The notes under the pieces: generated by a model
Databases searched by the model: none
Told to the model about the DNA's origin: nothing
Seen by the model: only the letters and a program-made list of their open reading frames with translations
Assembly: GCA_015522645.1 (NCBI GenBank)
Contig: WALV01000024.1
Coordinates: 1 to 56,171 of the forward strand
Direction of reading: 5' to 3'
DNA length: 56,171 nt
Source of the DNA: Candidatus Tiamatella sp.
GTDB taxonomy: Archaea > Thermoproteota > Thermoprotei_A > Sulfolobales > Acidilobaceae
Position numbers and translations under genes: made by a program
Shown: positions 19,480 through 48,245 of the stretch, piece by piece
How positions within the stretch are numbered: the first letter of the stretch is position 1
Layout: each line of letters begins with the position of its first letter

Positions 19480-20604
19480 CTAAGTAGAAGCAGCATCGGC
19501 AAGCAATTTAACTATCTCGTCTATACCGTATTCCCTTAGGAGCCAAGGTGTAACCGCTAAACGTAACCCTCTACCTTTTAGGCATCTATATATATTGTAT
19601 CCTGCTCTGTATAGATTCATTAGTACCCTATCAATTTTGTCATGCAACAAGCAAACGACGGGTGTTTCAATATCGTGAGGTATACTGTAATCGTAATCAG
19701 ATAGTTGGCTCGCTATGCGTTTGGATGAATCCATTAATCTTGTTGCAAGTAATTCTATGCCACCTTTCTCTTCTATCCTAGCCAAACTGAGCGCGCCGGC
19801 AATAATGGTCCAACCAGGCCTAGTTCCCAGTAACCCGAACTGCCGGCCGCTCGGGATATAATCCGCGTTAAAGAAAAGCTTCTCCAACAGCTCCGTATCA
19901 GACACGAATAGAAAACCTGACGGCGATGGTGCCTCAGGTATCTTATGGAGATCCACTGTATATGTTCGAATACAGCCATTAAGCGTCTTGGGTATTTTAT
20001 GTGGGGAGAGGTACTTTTGAATTACCCCCGCAAAAGCCCCATCTATATGTACCTTCGCACCTAACTTACATGCTGTATTCGAGGCTTCTAAAACTGGGTC
20101 TATATACCCTGTTTCCGTAGTACCCACTGTTAAGACAAGTAGAGACTTGTCATCTAAAGCATCCTCCAAGGCGTCTAGCTTGGGAAGATACCCTTTCTCC
20201 ACCGGTAATCTAACTAAATCCATTCCTAGGATCCTAGCAATTTTCCAGACGCTATAGTGGGCTGTTTCAAACGCGACTATCCGCCTTGCTCCATCTAATT
20301 TAGCTAGAAAAGCCGAGAGGAAATTGCTTTCCGTTCCACCGGTAGTAGCCATTCCAGTATATTTGCCTGTAAACATCCATTCAGAAAGCTTGCCCTCTAT
20401 GTATTCTATAGCCCTCTTAGTCGCGGGGAAATCATCTAAGTCCCCAAGGTTCTCATCTATGAATCCTATAGAGTCACGCACTATCTGAGGATCCGGGTGC
20501 GGGATCATGCCTCCTAACACTGTTGGACCTTTAAGTTTCTCATTCAACAACATCTCTAGTAATTTCTTGTATTCCCTCATATCCGGATCCCCTATATATC
20601 GCAC
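19480..20604 (-). CDS. mfnA: PLP-dependent amino acid decarboxylase, MfnA type
   Basis: Group II decarboxylase family. In methanogens MfnA decarboxylates tyrosine; in other archaea relatives decarboxylate aspartate to beta-alanine for coenzyme A, the more likely role here. Residues seen are TTGGTESNFLSAF, His116 in FETAHYS (stacks on PLP), Asp188 in VHIDGAFAG, and the PLP-binding Lys221 in TVDLHKIPEAPSPSG. The 374-residue length is standard. The start is GTG 20604 or ATG 20580; the latter has GGGGAT upstream. It is divergent from the DUF711 gene. Confidence 0.88.
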   Translation of the reverse strand: MRYIGDPDMREYKKLLEMLLNEKLKGPTVLGGMIPHPDPQIVRDSIGFIDENLGDLDDFPATKRAIEYIEGKLSEWMFTGKYTGMATTGGTESNFLSAFLAKLDGARRIVAFETAHYSVWKIARILGMDLVRLPVEKGYLPKLDALEDALDDKSLLVLTVGTTETGYIDPVLEASNTACKLGAKVHIDGAFAGVIQKYLSPHKIPKTLNGCIRTYTVDLHKIPEAPSPSGFLFVSDTELLEKLFFNADYIPSGRQFGLLGTRPGWTIIAGALSLARIEEKGGIELLATRLMDSSKRIASQLSDYDYSIPHDIETPVVCLLHDKIDRVLMNLYRAGYNIYRCLKGRGLRLAVTPWLLREYGIDEIVKLLADAAST

Positions 20605-20680
20605 ACCTGGATATATTCGAGGTGTACATAGTGTTATTAATAATAATAACCCATTCTAGTAAGAACAAGGTGAACATGAA

Positions 20681-42764: not shown

Positions 42765-43826
42765 TCATTTTCTTTTCCCACCATTTACAAGATCGTGTTT
42801 CCATAGTGTCAGAGGAGATAAACCGTTTTCCTTCAATGGACATATCTTGCCTTCCTTAACCCTGGATAACGCTATTGGAAACCTATCAGCATCAAGCATG
42901 ACTGTTAAAAAGAAAACAGCCAAACCTGCATCAGAGCCGAATCTTCTCATGAACTCCTCTTCAACACTATCCGCTTTAGCTGGAATACCGTAGGCGTAGG
43001 ATGCCAATCTTATTGTCCACCTGTCTAGCGGGGGGAATCTAAATCTACCATATGCCAGAAGAGTTGAAAGCCTAGCTGAATAATGCCCAAACCCCTTTAC
43101 CTGCCTTAAACTATAATAGAATTTATCTGGACTAGATGTATCAACTAAACCAGAGGCAAAACTATACGCCAACACCAAAAGAGTATTAGCCCTATACCCC
43201 AACCCTGTTATCTCCCTCAGCTCCTTGATTTGTTTCTCTATATCCCTTTTCACCAGAGGAAGCTTGTCCATCATTTCATATCTCTTTATACAAGTGTCTG
43301 GTCCATAGAAGAATCCCCTATACCCCGTAAGTTTACAAAGCATACGTGCAGGATCATATAGTACATAAATATCCCTTCCCAAGAGCCTTTGTATGTCACT
43401 ATAGTTCGCTATTAACCTAGCCAAAGATCTCCACGATGGGATGAAGCTATTATTTTGCTGTGCTAATGCTACTATAGCAGCGTTCCAATGGGGCAAACGC
43501 CTTATTCTGAGACCATTGTATTTTTCTGCGCACCCAAGAAGGGGATCACCCCTTGTTGCCTCGATGAAGCGTTGAATGTTGTCAAAGTAGCCTAGTGAAA
43601 TCTTTATTCTACGGATCATGCTGTCGCTGCATACGAATCTTCTAATTATGGCATTCCCCCTATTCGATATTTTAACAACGGTTATGTCTTCATGCATAGA
43701 ATCAGTTCTCTCAGCTAAAAATGCTGTAGTCCCAGTGTAGTAGAAGTTAAAATTATAAGTCGAAAGTACCTGTGCTGGGCTATAATTCGCTGATGCCTTT
43801 ATTGATCCGCATGTTGTTAGTAGCAA
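42765..43826 (-). CDS. HhH-GPD superfamily DNA glycosylase-like protein
   Basis: 353 residues. The C-terminal half has the helix-hairpin-helix of base-excision glycosylases, YSLRQVKGFGHYSARLSTLL, followed by the Gly/Pro-rich segment and the catalytic Asp in RFRFPPLDRWTIRLASYAYG. The N-terminal half (FNFYYTGTTAFL, then LPHWNAAIVALAQQNNSF, where AlkA/OGG types have LVxAILSQQ) fits the AlkA/OGG1 layout. No Fe-S cysteines are seen at the end, so it is not the Nth type; the Lys of OGG1 is not evident. TTG 43826 has GTGATG about 5 bases upstream. Lesion specificity is unknown. Confidence 0.7.
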   Translation of the reverse strand: MLLTTCGSIKASANYSPAQVLSTYNFNFYYTGTTAFLAERTDSMHEDITVVKISNRGNAIIRRFVCSDSMIRRIKISLGYFDNIQRFIEATRGDPLLGCAEKYNGLRIRRLPHWNAAIVALAQQNNSFIPSWRSLARLIANYSDIQRLLGRDIYVLYDPARMLCKLTGYRGFFYGPDTCIKRYEMMDKLPLVKRDIEKQIKELREITGLGYRANTLLVLAYSFASGLVDTSSPDKFYYSLRQVKGFGHYSARLSTLLAYGRFRFPPLDRWTIRLASYAYGIPAKADSVEEEFMRRFGSDAGLAVFFLTVMLDADRFPIALSRVKEGKICPLKENGLSPLTLWKHDLVNGGKRK

Positions 43827-43907
43827 AGATTCATCACGAGTTTGAAGTAATTCTATACCATGATATTATAATCTAATCTTACTGTAAAAGCGGGAGTAAT
43901 ACTTTAA

Positions 43908-43934
43908 TAACTATATCGGCTATCGATATAGTTA
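43908..43934. promoter_or_regulatory. Palindromic operator of the MMPL-PadR operon
   Basis: Perfect inverted repeat with 11-base arms, TAACTATATCG and CGATATAGTTA, around a 5-base spacer (GCTAT). A TATA-like TTTAATAA (43903-43910) overlaps its left end, and AGGTGA and TTG 43962 follow, so the palindrome lies between TATA box and likely transcription start. The operon encodes a PadR regulator, the obvious candidate to bind here. Confidence 0.65.
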
Positions 43935-43961
43935 GGATAGAGATATAAAAGGTGAACGTCC

Positions 43962-46900
43962 TTGGGCGCATCAAGGTTCATCGCTAGAAAACCAGTGGTT
44001 ATAATTGCAATATGGTTTATTATAGCTGCAGCTTCTGCACCACTATTCATGAAGCTAGACAATGTTCTAGTTACACAGGAGCAAGGATTGCTACCTCCTA
44101 ATACTGAGAGCCAGCAAGCTGAGAAACTCCTTGAAAACATCACAGGAAGTTCAGGTGACAGTTATGCTTTACTCTTAGTGGACAACGTTAACGTATCGTC
44201 TCCCGATATAGCATTGAAAATAGGCACATGGTATATGAGCAAAGAAAGCGAGCTGTCCCAGTACTCGGAGAAAACCATGGGATACCCTGTTATAATCGCC
44301 GAAGTCTACAATGGTATTAGAAGCCAAACACTTCAAGGGCTCAATCAGTCCGTGTCCTCGGTCACGAAAAGCGTACACGCGGCAGAAATAGTCAATGAAA
44401 CCGTTCAGAGAGCCTGGTACTTGGATCATGCCTTATTGAATGAAACAAAGAACACTAGAGAGCAGTTGATACTAGCAGATAAAGCATATACTGGTATATA
44501 TAGTAACTTAACTGTTCTCAGGAAATCATATCTCAACCTTAACAATACAGTATACACTCTCTCGTATGCCTGGAACAATGTTCCAGACCTCTATAGTAAA
44601 GTTTGGTTTGATATAAGTAGAACACACTACTTCCTAATGACGAATACAACTGCTTATCAAACCGGGAGCCTGACACCTAGCGACATAGATTTAGTTACCA
44701 AGCTAACTAATACTACTGGTATAGGACCCGTCAAGCCTGAGGAAGTAGTCGCTTACTATAGACTAATAATGAATTTAACTAAAGGCAATCCCTCCCAAGC
44801 TGATTATAAAACTATATCAGAAGCTACCTTGATTACATGTCTCCATGAACTCCAGCAACAAACTGTCAACACGAATAATCAAATAGTAGCTGGTGCATTG
44901 GAAACATATAACAACATCTGGGAGAAATCGCTAGAAATAGCCAACCTAACTAATCTTCCATTGCTCTATAAAGTGGAAAGCCAGCTATATGTCTATGATA
45001 CAATAAAAAATATAGAACTCCAAGCGAAACCGTATGCTATTAAGGCTTTCTCAGAATTCATAGCTAAAAGTATGTCCGAAAAAACCGGGATCAACGCTAC
45101 GTTTCTAGTTAAATTCATAAAAGAGGCAAGTAATCTAAAATACCCACCAGACCCTTCACAGGCCAACCAGCTTATTACTAGCTTGCTTACATCTAACGCG
45201 GGAACCGGAGAACGAAAAGAATTCCTGTCACAAGCCTTAGAAATAGTCTCGCAGAGAAATCCAATGCCTACGGATGCACTTAAAATTGTAATCACGACAA
45301 CCGAAGAAGAGACCGGTAGCAAGGAGACAGCATCATATATAGGTATGATATTACAGCAATATGACCCTCAGGCTACCGGTGCAATTATAGCTGACAATGA
45401 AACGTTGGCGAAGGCTATCGCCGACTTATTTACAAATATGACACCAGCAAATCTGACATCGATATTGAATTCAAGTATAATACATACAATCATCTATTCA
45501 TTCGCACAAGTATTAAACAACAAGAATGCTACGCAAAGCGATTTCTCGATTGCATTAAACCAAGCATACAATATGATTATTAAAGAGTTCATTAAAGAGG
45601 TGCTTAACAAGACTCCTGTGAACGCACGGCCTTTCATGGAGTACCTGTTCAAAGCGGCTGGTAACACTGGTATTTACAGGTTCGATATTAGGCAAATACT
45701 ATTGCCGATCCTTGTCCAACAAGCTGAAAACATAGCCGGTGGAACCAGAAGTATTAACATGCCGGTAAAGCTGATAAAAACTAATCTATGGGAAGCATTC
45801 AACATTGCATATTACCACAATGAGACCATGGAAGAAGCTGTGGGTAAGCTCAGCAGACAAGCGTTCTATAGCATGTATGGAAAACTCCTGGACTCCCTAA
45901 AGGGAACCGTGGTATCAAGAGATGCTGCTGCATTCTTAATATCATTCAAACCATACGCTGAACCAAGCGAGGAGGACCCCACATACTACTATCAAGCACA
46001 GAACTTTACCAGAATAGTGAACGAAACCCTTGGAAAGTATGTTGAAAACTATAAGCTCTACCTGACTGGATCCGGAATAATAGAATATGAGACACACCAG
46101 CTATCAGGCGAGGATATGAAGCGTGTTGACACTCTGAGCAATACCATGGTTATCATATTCTTATTCCTAGTATTGGAAAGTATTGCGGCAGTAATCATAC
46201 CATTCATGGGAATTTTCGTGGCTATCCTAATAGCGGGCGCTTTAGCATATCTTATAGTAACAGGAGGAATAGTAGACCTATCCTCATGGGCTAGAGTTGT
46301 AATGATAACCACTAGTCTAGGACTAGGTGCTGATTATGCAGGATTCATATCCTATAGGTTTAGAGAGGAGTTCCATAATACTAGGGACTCTAAACTAGCA
46401 GCGGAAAGAGCATTATCTAGAACCTATGCGGCTATCATAACTAGCGCGACAACAGCTATCATTGGCTTCGGCAGCCTAGCGTTAGCCCATGACTTCCCAT
46501 TCCTCCTAAGCTTCGGAGTCTCTATACCCTTAGCAATTTTCATAACAATGCTAGCAGGAGTTACACTCATTCCGGCTTTACTATCCCTACTAGGAGGCCA
46601 TAGTAGGTTCTGGTGGCCTAAGACACCGGAGAAACTGTCAATTAGAGGCAGAAGCTGGTTGGGAAGTAAAATAGTCAAATACGCGAAAATAGTAATAATA
46701 GTGTGGATTCTTGTATCAATTCCTTCGGCATATGCATATGCAACATTCAAAGGAAGCCACAACATGCAGGTGTTCCTACCGGAAGACAGTAGCGCTGTGA
46801 AAAGCTTCAATGTTGTATCCAAGAAATTCGGTGCGGGAATAATATATCAGACATACGTCGTCGTCGAGTTAAATAAACCGTGGAACTCCACTGACTCGCT

Positions 46901-47726
46901 CAACGCTCTAAAGAGTATCGATGAAGCACTGAAATCGAAAGACTATATAGTAGGTATATCAGGACCGCTTGAGTATACTAATTCGACGATGATGCCGGGT
47001 TCGAGCAAGGCGAACCCGTACGTTAGTAAAGACGGGAGAACAGTGTATATCTCGGTTTTCATAAGGGATAATCCCCTAGGCAATAAAGGAATAAGTGAAG
47101 TTAAAGAGCTTAGAGAAACGCTTCATAGCACAGAATTTGGTGCCAGTATAAAGAGGATACTTGTAGGGGGGTTTGCAGCATCTATGCTTGAAATGGAGAG
47201 CCTGCTAAACGACAGGTTCTATCATAGAGTCCTGCCTGTCGCAGTTACGCTAATGATCATAGCTTTCGCGGTTGCATTCAATAGTATAGTAGCGGCATTA
47301 GCGGCGATAACGGTTATTATAACATCAGCAATGATAGCTATAGCGGGTGCTGAGATAATATTCCAGGACTGGCTTGGTAAACCTGTCCTGTGGTTCCTGC
47401 CCATAATGGTGTTAACAGCGATCCTTGGAGTAGGTATGGACTATAACAGCTTCTCTCTAAGCAGAGCTAGAGAGGAATGCTTGAAAGACTGTAGTGATAA
47501 TAGTATAGTGCTGGCAACAGCTAGAGTAGGGCTGTTAGTGTTCGGTTTATCACTAATAATGGGTAGCGCGTATCTATCAATGATGTCATCACATACATGG
47601 GGTATGAGAGAGCTAGGATTCACGTTAGGTACCGGAGTTCTACTAGCAGGAGCTATGGCAAGCTATCTGGTTAACCCTTCGATCATAGCTGTTCTCAAGG
47701 CTAAAATGTGGAGGAGAATAAGGTGA
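43962..47726 (+). CDS. MMPL/RND-family exporter with very large first ectodomain
   Basis: 1254-residue membrane transporter of the MMPL type (RND superfamily), proton-driven export of hydrophobic compounds. It has two halves: TM1 at about 8-27, a roughly 690-residue extracytoplasmic region (about 30-720) rich in NxS/T sites and helices, then TMs 2-6; a second half opens near 900 with a much smaller ectodomain (about 930-1087) and five more TMs. The proton-relay Asp-Tyr pairs are in GLGADYAGFISYRFREE and GVGMDYNSFSLSRAREE. The TTG start has AGGTGA 7 bases upstream. The PadR gene follows after 6 bases. Confidence 0.92.
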   Translation: MGASRFIARKPVVIIAIWFIIAAASAPLFMKLDNVLVTQEQGLLPPNTESQQAEKLLENITGSSGDSYALLLVDNVNVSSPDIALKIGTWYMSKESELSQYSEKTMGYPVIIAEVYNGIRSQTLQGLNQSVSSVTKSVHAAEIVNETVQRAWYLDHALLNETKNTREQLILADKAYTGIYSNLTVLRKSYLNLNNTVYTLSYAWNNVPDLYSKVWFDISRTHYFLMTNTTAYQTGSLTPSDIDLVTKLTNTTGIGPVKPEEVVAYYRLIMNLTKGNPSQADYKTISEATLITCLHELQQQTVNTNNQIVAGALETYNNIWEKSLEIANLTNLPLLYKVESQLYVYDTIKNIELQAKPYAIKAFSEFIAKSMSEKTGINATFLVKFIKEASNLKYPPDPSQANQLITSLLTSNAGTGERKEFLSQALEIVSQRNPMPTDALKIVITTTEEETGSKETASYIGMILQQYDPQATGAIIADNETLAKAIADLFTNMTPANLTSILNSSIIHTIIYSFAQVLNNKNATQSDFSIALNQAYNMIIKEFIKEVLNKTPVNARPFMEYLFKAAGNTGIYRFDIRQILLPILVQQAENIAGGTRSINMPVKLIKTNLWEAFNIAYYHNETMEEAVGKLSRQAFYSMYGKLLDSLKGTVVSRDAAAFLISFKPYAEPSEEDPTYYYQAQNFTRIVNETLGKYVENYKLYLTGSGIIEYETHQLSGEDMKRVDTLSNTMVIIFLFLVLESIAAVIIPFMGIFVAILIAGALAYLIVTGGIVDLSSWARVVMITTSLGLGADYAGFISYRFREEFHNTRDSKLAAERALSRTYAAIITSATTAIIGFGSLALAHDFPFLLSFGVSIPLAIFITMLAGVTLIPALLSLLGGHSRFWWPKTPEKLSIRGRSWLGSKIVKYAKIVIIVWILVSIPSAYAYATFKGSHNMQVFLPEDSSAVKSFNVVSKKFGAGIIYQTYVVVELNKPWNSTDSLNALKSIDEALKSKDYIVGISGPLEYTNSTMMPGSSKANPYVSKDGRTVYISVFIRDNPLGNKGISEVKELRETLHSTEFGASIKRILVGGFAASMLEMESLLNDRFYHRVLPVAVTLMIIAFAVAFNSIVAALAAITVIITSAMIAIAGAEIIFQDWLGKPVLWFLPIMVLTAILGVGMDYNSFSLSRAREECLKDCSDNSIVLATARVGLLVFGLSLIMGSAYLSMMSSHTWGMRELGFTLGTGVLLAGAMASYLVNPSIIAVLKAKMWRRIR

Positions 47727-47732
47727 ATAGAA

Positions 47733-48245
47733 ATGGTCTCCACACCGCGAATATCTAACCCTTTTTATTTAAGGACAAGGTTCACTGTACTACTTCTCCT
47801 AGCTAGTGGAGAAATGCATGGTTATCAGATTATCAAGTTCCTCAAGACTATAAAACTAGGCGAACGGAATCCTGGTCCATCCACTATATATCCTATACTG
47901 CATAGACTGGAGAAAGAAGGTCTCATAGAATCGGTATATGAGAAAGGAGAGAAAAGGAAGGCTTATAGAATAACCGATAAAGGAATGGCGTTTTTGAAGT
48001 CGAGAATCAGGATTGCAAGAGAATTCATGTCTTATTTCCAGGGAATCCTGGATTTAGTCGAGGCTAAAATCGATAGTTATGAACCTAAGAAAGCGGATTA
48101 TGTAAGAATCCTTAGAGAAGCCTATGATTCCATGTATAAACTATGTGAGAGGATCAAGGGAGCCCTAGAGGAAATAAATAGAGAAATCTCTAAGGAGAAA
48201 ACCTGGAGGAACCCTGGTAAATATATTAATGTCTCCTCTTCATAG
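47733..48245 (+). CDS. PadR-family transcriptional regulator
   Basis: 170 residues. The N-terminal winged helix is the PadR type: FTVLLLLASGEMHGYQIIKF, then GPSTIYPILHRLEKEGLIES, then EKRKAYRITDKGMAFL. The C-terminal part (LDLVEAKIDSYEPKKADYVR) is a helical dimerisation region. PadR proteins usually repress neighbouring drug-exporter genes and release DNA on binding a ligand. It lies 6 bases after the MMPL gene and the pair has a palindrome at 43908, so autoregulation is likely. Its 3' end overlaps the convergent methyltransferase by 20 bases. Confidence 0.92.
   Translation: MVSTPRISNPFYLRTRFTVLLLLASGEMHGYQIIKFLKTIKLGERNPGPSTIYPILHRLEKEGLIESVYEKGEKRKAYRITDKGMAFLKSRIRIAREFMSYFQGILDLVEAKIDSYEPKKADYVRILREAYDSMYKLCERIKGALEEINREISKEKTWRNPGKYINVSSS

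Follow-up and report, generated by a model that had tools for sequence, protein, structure and literature searches.

Does the perfect palindrome ahead of a transporter gene in this locus act as an operator, and if so, which regulator would bind it? The window, by which is meant the whole stretch of 56,171 nucleotides that was analysed, reads TAACTATATCG-GCTAT-CGATATAGTTA at positions 43908-43934, an inverted repeat (dyad 1, assigned to neither strand) with perfect 11-base arms, a 5-base spacer and a conserved core at 43910-43932. The letters and coordinates are exactly those given in the original prediction. The palindrome lies between a TATA-like box, TTTAAT (43903-43908, plus strand), which had been predicted as well and is invariant in three congeners, and the TTG start at 43962 of a gene of the MMPL family (RND superfamily) on the plus strand (43962-47726, 1254 aa; PF03176, 202.5 bits), the start codon position of which is conserved. 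Against NCBIfam the MMPL protein gives MMPL/RND, HAE3 and HpnN-like matches, all under the cut-offs. The operon was expected to include a PadR regulator, and a gene of this family (47733-48245, plus strand, 170 aa) indeed begins 6 bp past the MMPL stop, in a linkage that is conserved. Its winged-helix domain is recognised by the curated profile PF03551 (71.5 bits, cut-off 27), and the sequence extends beyond that domain. The comparison of related loci makes it likely that the palindrome is one part, the upstream dyad, of an operator with two dyads and three boxes, and that this operator, autorepressing and overlapping the transcription start, serves the PadR which the operon encodes as its second gene.

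On the other side of the promoter region there is a divergent gene (42765-43826, 353 aa) which by eye looks like a DNA-glycosylase-type protein; no match to it was found in Pfam or NCBIfam. A block in the promoter of this gene, ATATTATAATCTA, is invariant across the three congeners.

No perfect short inverted repeat in the 56-kb window is longer than the palindrome, which is the sole perfect one with arms of at least 11 bases and a spacer of at most 20, where Markov-shuffled windows average 0.1. A search for it elsewhere in the genome, which had been proposed as a check, found no second copy at up to three mismatches in the window (shuffles expect 0) or in the 1.54-Mb genome, so that it is unique at this threshold. 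One-mismatch matches in two other genera (genomes G065 and G026) both lie inside unrelated genes and were regarded as background.

The site was compared in two congeners of the window genome (G000), namely G001, with an MMPL protein 75% identical, and G002, a publicly available contig of a Desulfurococcales MAG, with one 64% identical. The gene order is the same in both (divergent gene, MMPL, PadR, convergent methyltransferase), and in each of the three congeners only a few bp separate MMPL from the PadR gene behind it. The promoters of G001 and G002 retain TTTAAT, ACTATATCG, CGATATA and a downstream GATATAA, and the site keeps its location between TTTAAT and the start codon. The part conserved in the two genomes is ACTATATCG-N5-CGATATA(G/C)T; the predicted 11-base arms are perfect in the window, but conservation is limited to 9 bp per arm, and among the three congeners the outermost TA/TA pairs occur in the window genome only. 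The perfect arms measure 11 bp in the window, 10 in G001 (one spacer pair matching by happenstance included) and 7 in G002. The spacer itself varies, being GCTAT in the window and AATAT or AAAGA in the others. Conserved arms around a diverging spacer indicate constraint on the former and none on the latter, which is the pattern expected of a dimer-binding site. It should be noted here that the congeners are closely related and that perfect arms of 9-10 bp arise by chance in a window of 56 kb, as would suit a chance palindrome or the shared ancestry of a functionless AT-rich promoter. This explanation is nevertheless highly improbable in view of the arm conservation beside spacer divergence, and also because a motif trained on other genera recovers the site at a fixed tandem spacing.

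That motif comes from 60 related genomes, in which MMPL relatives and PadR relatives were located. Among the units examined, those of the same family mostly have PadR directly downstream of MMPL, and six order-level units have it in divergent orientation. A palindromic EM model was run on the 100 bases ahead of MMPL, and it was found that 19 PadR-linked MMPL promoters have an odd-centred dyad in common, roughly nATATgTCgG-nnn-CcGAcATATn, with a log-likelihood of 127-148 as compared to 28-47 in shuffles; an even-centred palindrome model gave a poorer fit (80-87) and was set aside. Since a conserved coding stretch used as control reached 113, the likelihood alone is insufficient, and symmetry and leave-group-out ranking were therefore used. 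Mirrored positions of the promoter sites are complementary in 6.3 of 11 pairs, whereas the control regions reach about 4. When the genus group of a locus was withheld from training, the tandem dyad in the MMPL promoter came first over the entire locus of 5-12 kb in all 23 loci, that of the window included. This count is slightly biased, as the best spacing was picked for each locus, and the loci, being related by descent, are not 23 independent trials. The dyads of the window genus, at 9-12 bits, fall below the majority of family sites, and taken singly they are equalled by several positions inside genes of the window (rank 7). When trained only on other genera, where the dyads are imperfect and occupy the same promoter position, the motif recovers the window palindrome together with an overlapping dyad at 43925-43947. 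Conservation upstream of orthologous MMPL genes had been named as one of two tests of the prediction; the site withstands it, being kept in G001 and G002 with a diverged spacer and recovered by the motif from other genera.

The element had been described as 27 bases long. The palindrome itself stands, but the element runs beyond 43934, as the second conserved dyad (GATATAG...GAGATATA, 43925-43947, no strand assigned) overlaps the first at an offset of 15 bp downstream. This dyad scores 8.7 bits with the motif trained without the window genus, the tandem pair ranks first in a 9-kb test stretch, and the same 15-bp spacing is found in G001 and G002. The window thus carries three boxes, ACTATATC at 43910, GATATAGT at 43925 and GAGATATA at 43940 (43940-43947), and belongs to the 15-bp class. 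Across 17 training promoters, pairs of dyads that each reach 6 bits or more have a spacing of 17 bp in 11 cases and of 15 bp in 8, with few others, and overlapping pairs of these two spacings recur in most MMPL-PadR promoters, whether PadR is downstream or divergent. Either offset amounts to about one and a half helical turns. The pattern ATATC-N7..9-GATAT-N8..12-GATAT occurs at one place each in G001 and G002, the MMPL promoter, and at three places in the window genome, namely the MMPL promoter, a decarboxylase promoter and a position inside a gene on contig C67, the last being judged a chance match. Tentatively, it could be that PadRs linked to MMPL in this archaeal order have an operator design of their own, namely two overlapping dyads with a fixed 15/17-bp offset and a common middle box. 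Over the region from TATA box to start, either a pair of dimers would then occupy opposite DNA faces, or a single dimer would switch between two registers. No description of such a regular tandem geometry was found in the PadR operator literature cited here, and the geometry is possibly new.

The distance from TATA box to start in archaea is usually about 25 bases, and from the position of the box the transcription start would be expected near 43931-43936; with this spacing the predicted operator spans about -22 to +15. The same stretch could in principle act in RNA, as a hairpin in the 5' leader that affects translation or transcription of MMPL, and its RNA fold has an energy of -20.1 kcal/mol (z -2.9). 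However, most of the hairpin would be left untranscribed, because the TATA box at 43903-43908 puts the expected start at the far end of the palindrome. Moreover, the second dyad lies outside the hairpin yet is conserved, the dyads of other genera are imperfect while their promoter position is unchanged, and a terminator-like site was looked for and none was found. Hairpin and terminator were rejected on the grounds of the expected start, the conserved second dyad and the missing terminator-like site, and an action in RNA is hardly credible.

The assignment of the site to PadR depends on how the motif is distributed and on its register. The motif is present in 23 of 23 PadR-linked MMPL promoters as compared to two of nine without a linked PadR, plus a third weakly (Fisher p about 1e-5, with phylogeny ignored and the unlinked promoters assessed by eye and at a higher score). 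The published LmrR/PadR operator has ATGT/ACAT half-sites with 8-10 bp between them (PMC3506622). The window reads ATAT-N9-ATAT and a relative (locus L114) reads ATGT-N9-ACAT in the same register, so that the spacing and register of the window site fit the published rule. The strict ATGT letters are absent from the window site, and half-sites of ATAT in place of the bacterial ATGT count against a PadR operator. Co-occurrence in both the downstream and the divergent arrangement, together with the published operator register, argues for the predicted link between the site and a PadR regulator.

Two MMPL genes of genus g10 (loci L103 and L109) have no adjacent PadR and carry a strong dyad of 14-18 bits about 30 bases before MMPL. 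This counts against the reading as an operator of the linked PadR, and an unlinked PadR may act there. Within the window, a second similar array is found at 20578-20615, at the start of a gene for an MfnA-like pyridoxal decarboxylase (19480-20604, minus strand); apart from the MMPL promoter, a tandem score of comparable height is reached nowhere else in the window. G001 retains one dyad of this array, of which the left half alone is clear in G002; promoters of decarboxylase genes from the same family served as controls and have no comparable dyad in common. The G001 copy of the decarboxylase (locus L129) has one TAG inside the tblastn match, near its start, which may reflect a different true start codon or a frame problem. 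The decarboxylase is possibly a second PadR target, and the array suggests that control may not be purely local. In the promoter region of the second PadR gene of the window genome (locus L122, contig C36, about 1851-1888) there are two dyads 15 bp apart, of 6.5 and 7.2 bits, which is too weak for a judgement.

The array at the decarboxylase promoter has no neighbouring PadR, and the genome contains three further PadR-domain matches as well as six TrmB-domain matches above the cut-off. The palindrome could thus serve a winged-helix regulator other than the linked PadR, which would then act elsewhere; candidates are a second PadR paralogue and a protein of the TrmB family, whose motif in Thermococcales, TATCAC-N5-GTGATA, shares the layout and the 5-bp spacer (PMC4706686). 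Such an assignment is unlikely, as the motif tracks PadR-linked MMPL units through two gene arrangements, the half-site of the window differs from TATCAC (it reads TATATCG-N5-CGATATA), and motif matches at the other PadR loci are weak.

If the linked PadR is the binding protein, as the association of the motif with PadR-linked units suggests, a PadR dimer would set its two recognition helices into the half-sites of one dyad. As the operator would cover about -22 to +15, just past the TATA box, bound PadR could block the recruitment of RNA polymerase, the mode described for TrmBL1 bound downstream of an archaeal TATA box (PMC4706686). The sign of control would then be repression, which would silence the transporter and padR together and, given the place of padR as second gene, would be autoregulatory. 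Several dimers per promoter and autoregulation are reported for LmrR and cdPadR1 (PMC4534193, PMC5050560). A ligand, perhaps the transported compound, could free PadR and thus induce transporter and repressor jointly; the direction of transport would presumably be export.

According to a paper of 2016, it was unknown what PadR regulators do in archaea (PMC4706686). The present analysis connects a predicted operator with a likely regulator and a target gene in an archaeal family and in part of the order to which it belongs, and it states both the motif and the spacing rule explicitly. This offers a handle on what archaeal MMPL transporters respond to.

Among known systems, LmrR with lmrCD/lmrR of Lactococcus lactis, a PadR-s2 multidrug repressor, likewise has a PadR-family gene beside a transporter gene, and here too a linked transporter gene, 6 bp upstream of padR, lies under the same predicted operator. 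LmrR structures match the window PadR at about 1e-8, and the alignment covers residues 14-113. In LmrR a Trp stacks on planar drugs; a Met is aligned with this residue in the window PadR, so that ligand binding probably differs and multidrug sensing is not to be assumed. The window PadR is also longer, with 170 aa as compared to about 116, its promoter is of the archaeal TATA type, its half-sites are mostly ATAT, and the transporter is of MMPL/RND type, whereas LmrR controls an ABC pump. The autoregulated promoter of LmrR, with its palindromic half-sites and several dimers (PMC3506622, PMC4534193), is comparable to the operator predicted here. The cdPadR1 of Clostridioides difficile is autoregulatory and, like the predicted system, has a pair of inverted repeats at the promoter of its own gene (PMC5050560), but these are TACT-N11/12-AGTA, and about 200 sites are predicted in that genome whereas the three-box pattern is nearly unique in the window genome. 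TrmBL1 with the Thermococcales Glycolytic Motif offers an archaeal palindrome with a 5-bp spacer that represses just downstream of the TATA box (PMC4706686); it differs in its TATCAC/GTGATA half-site, in its regulator family and in its sugar regulon of about 37 sites. Taken at the level of sequence comparison, the predicted circuit is, with good support, of an ordinary type, its layout being common to related archaea and near to the known drug-efflux switches of bacteria.
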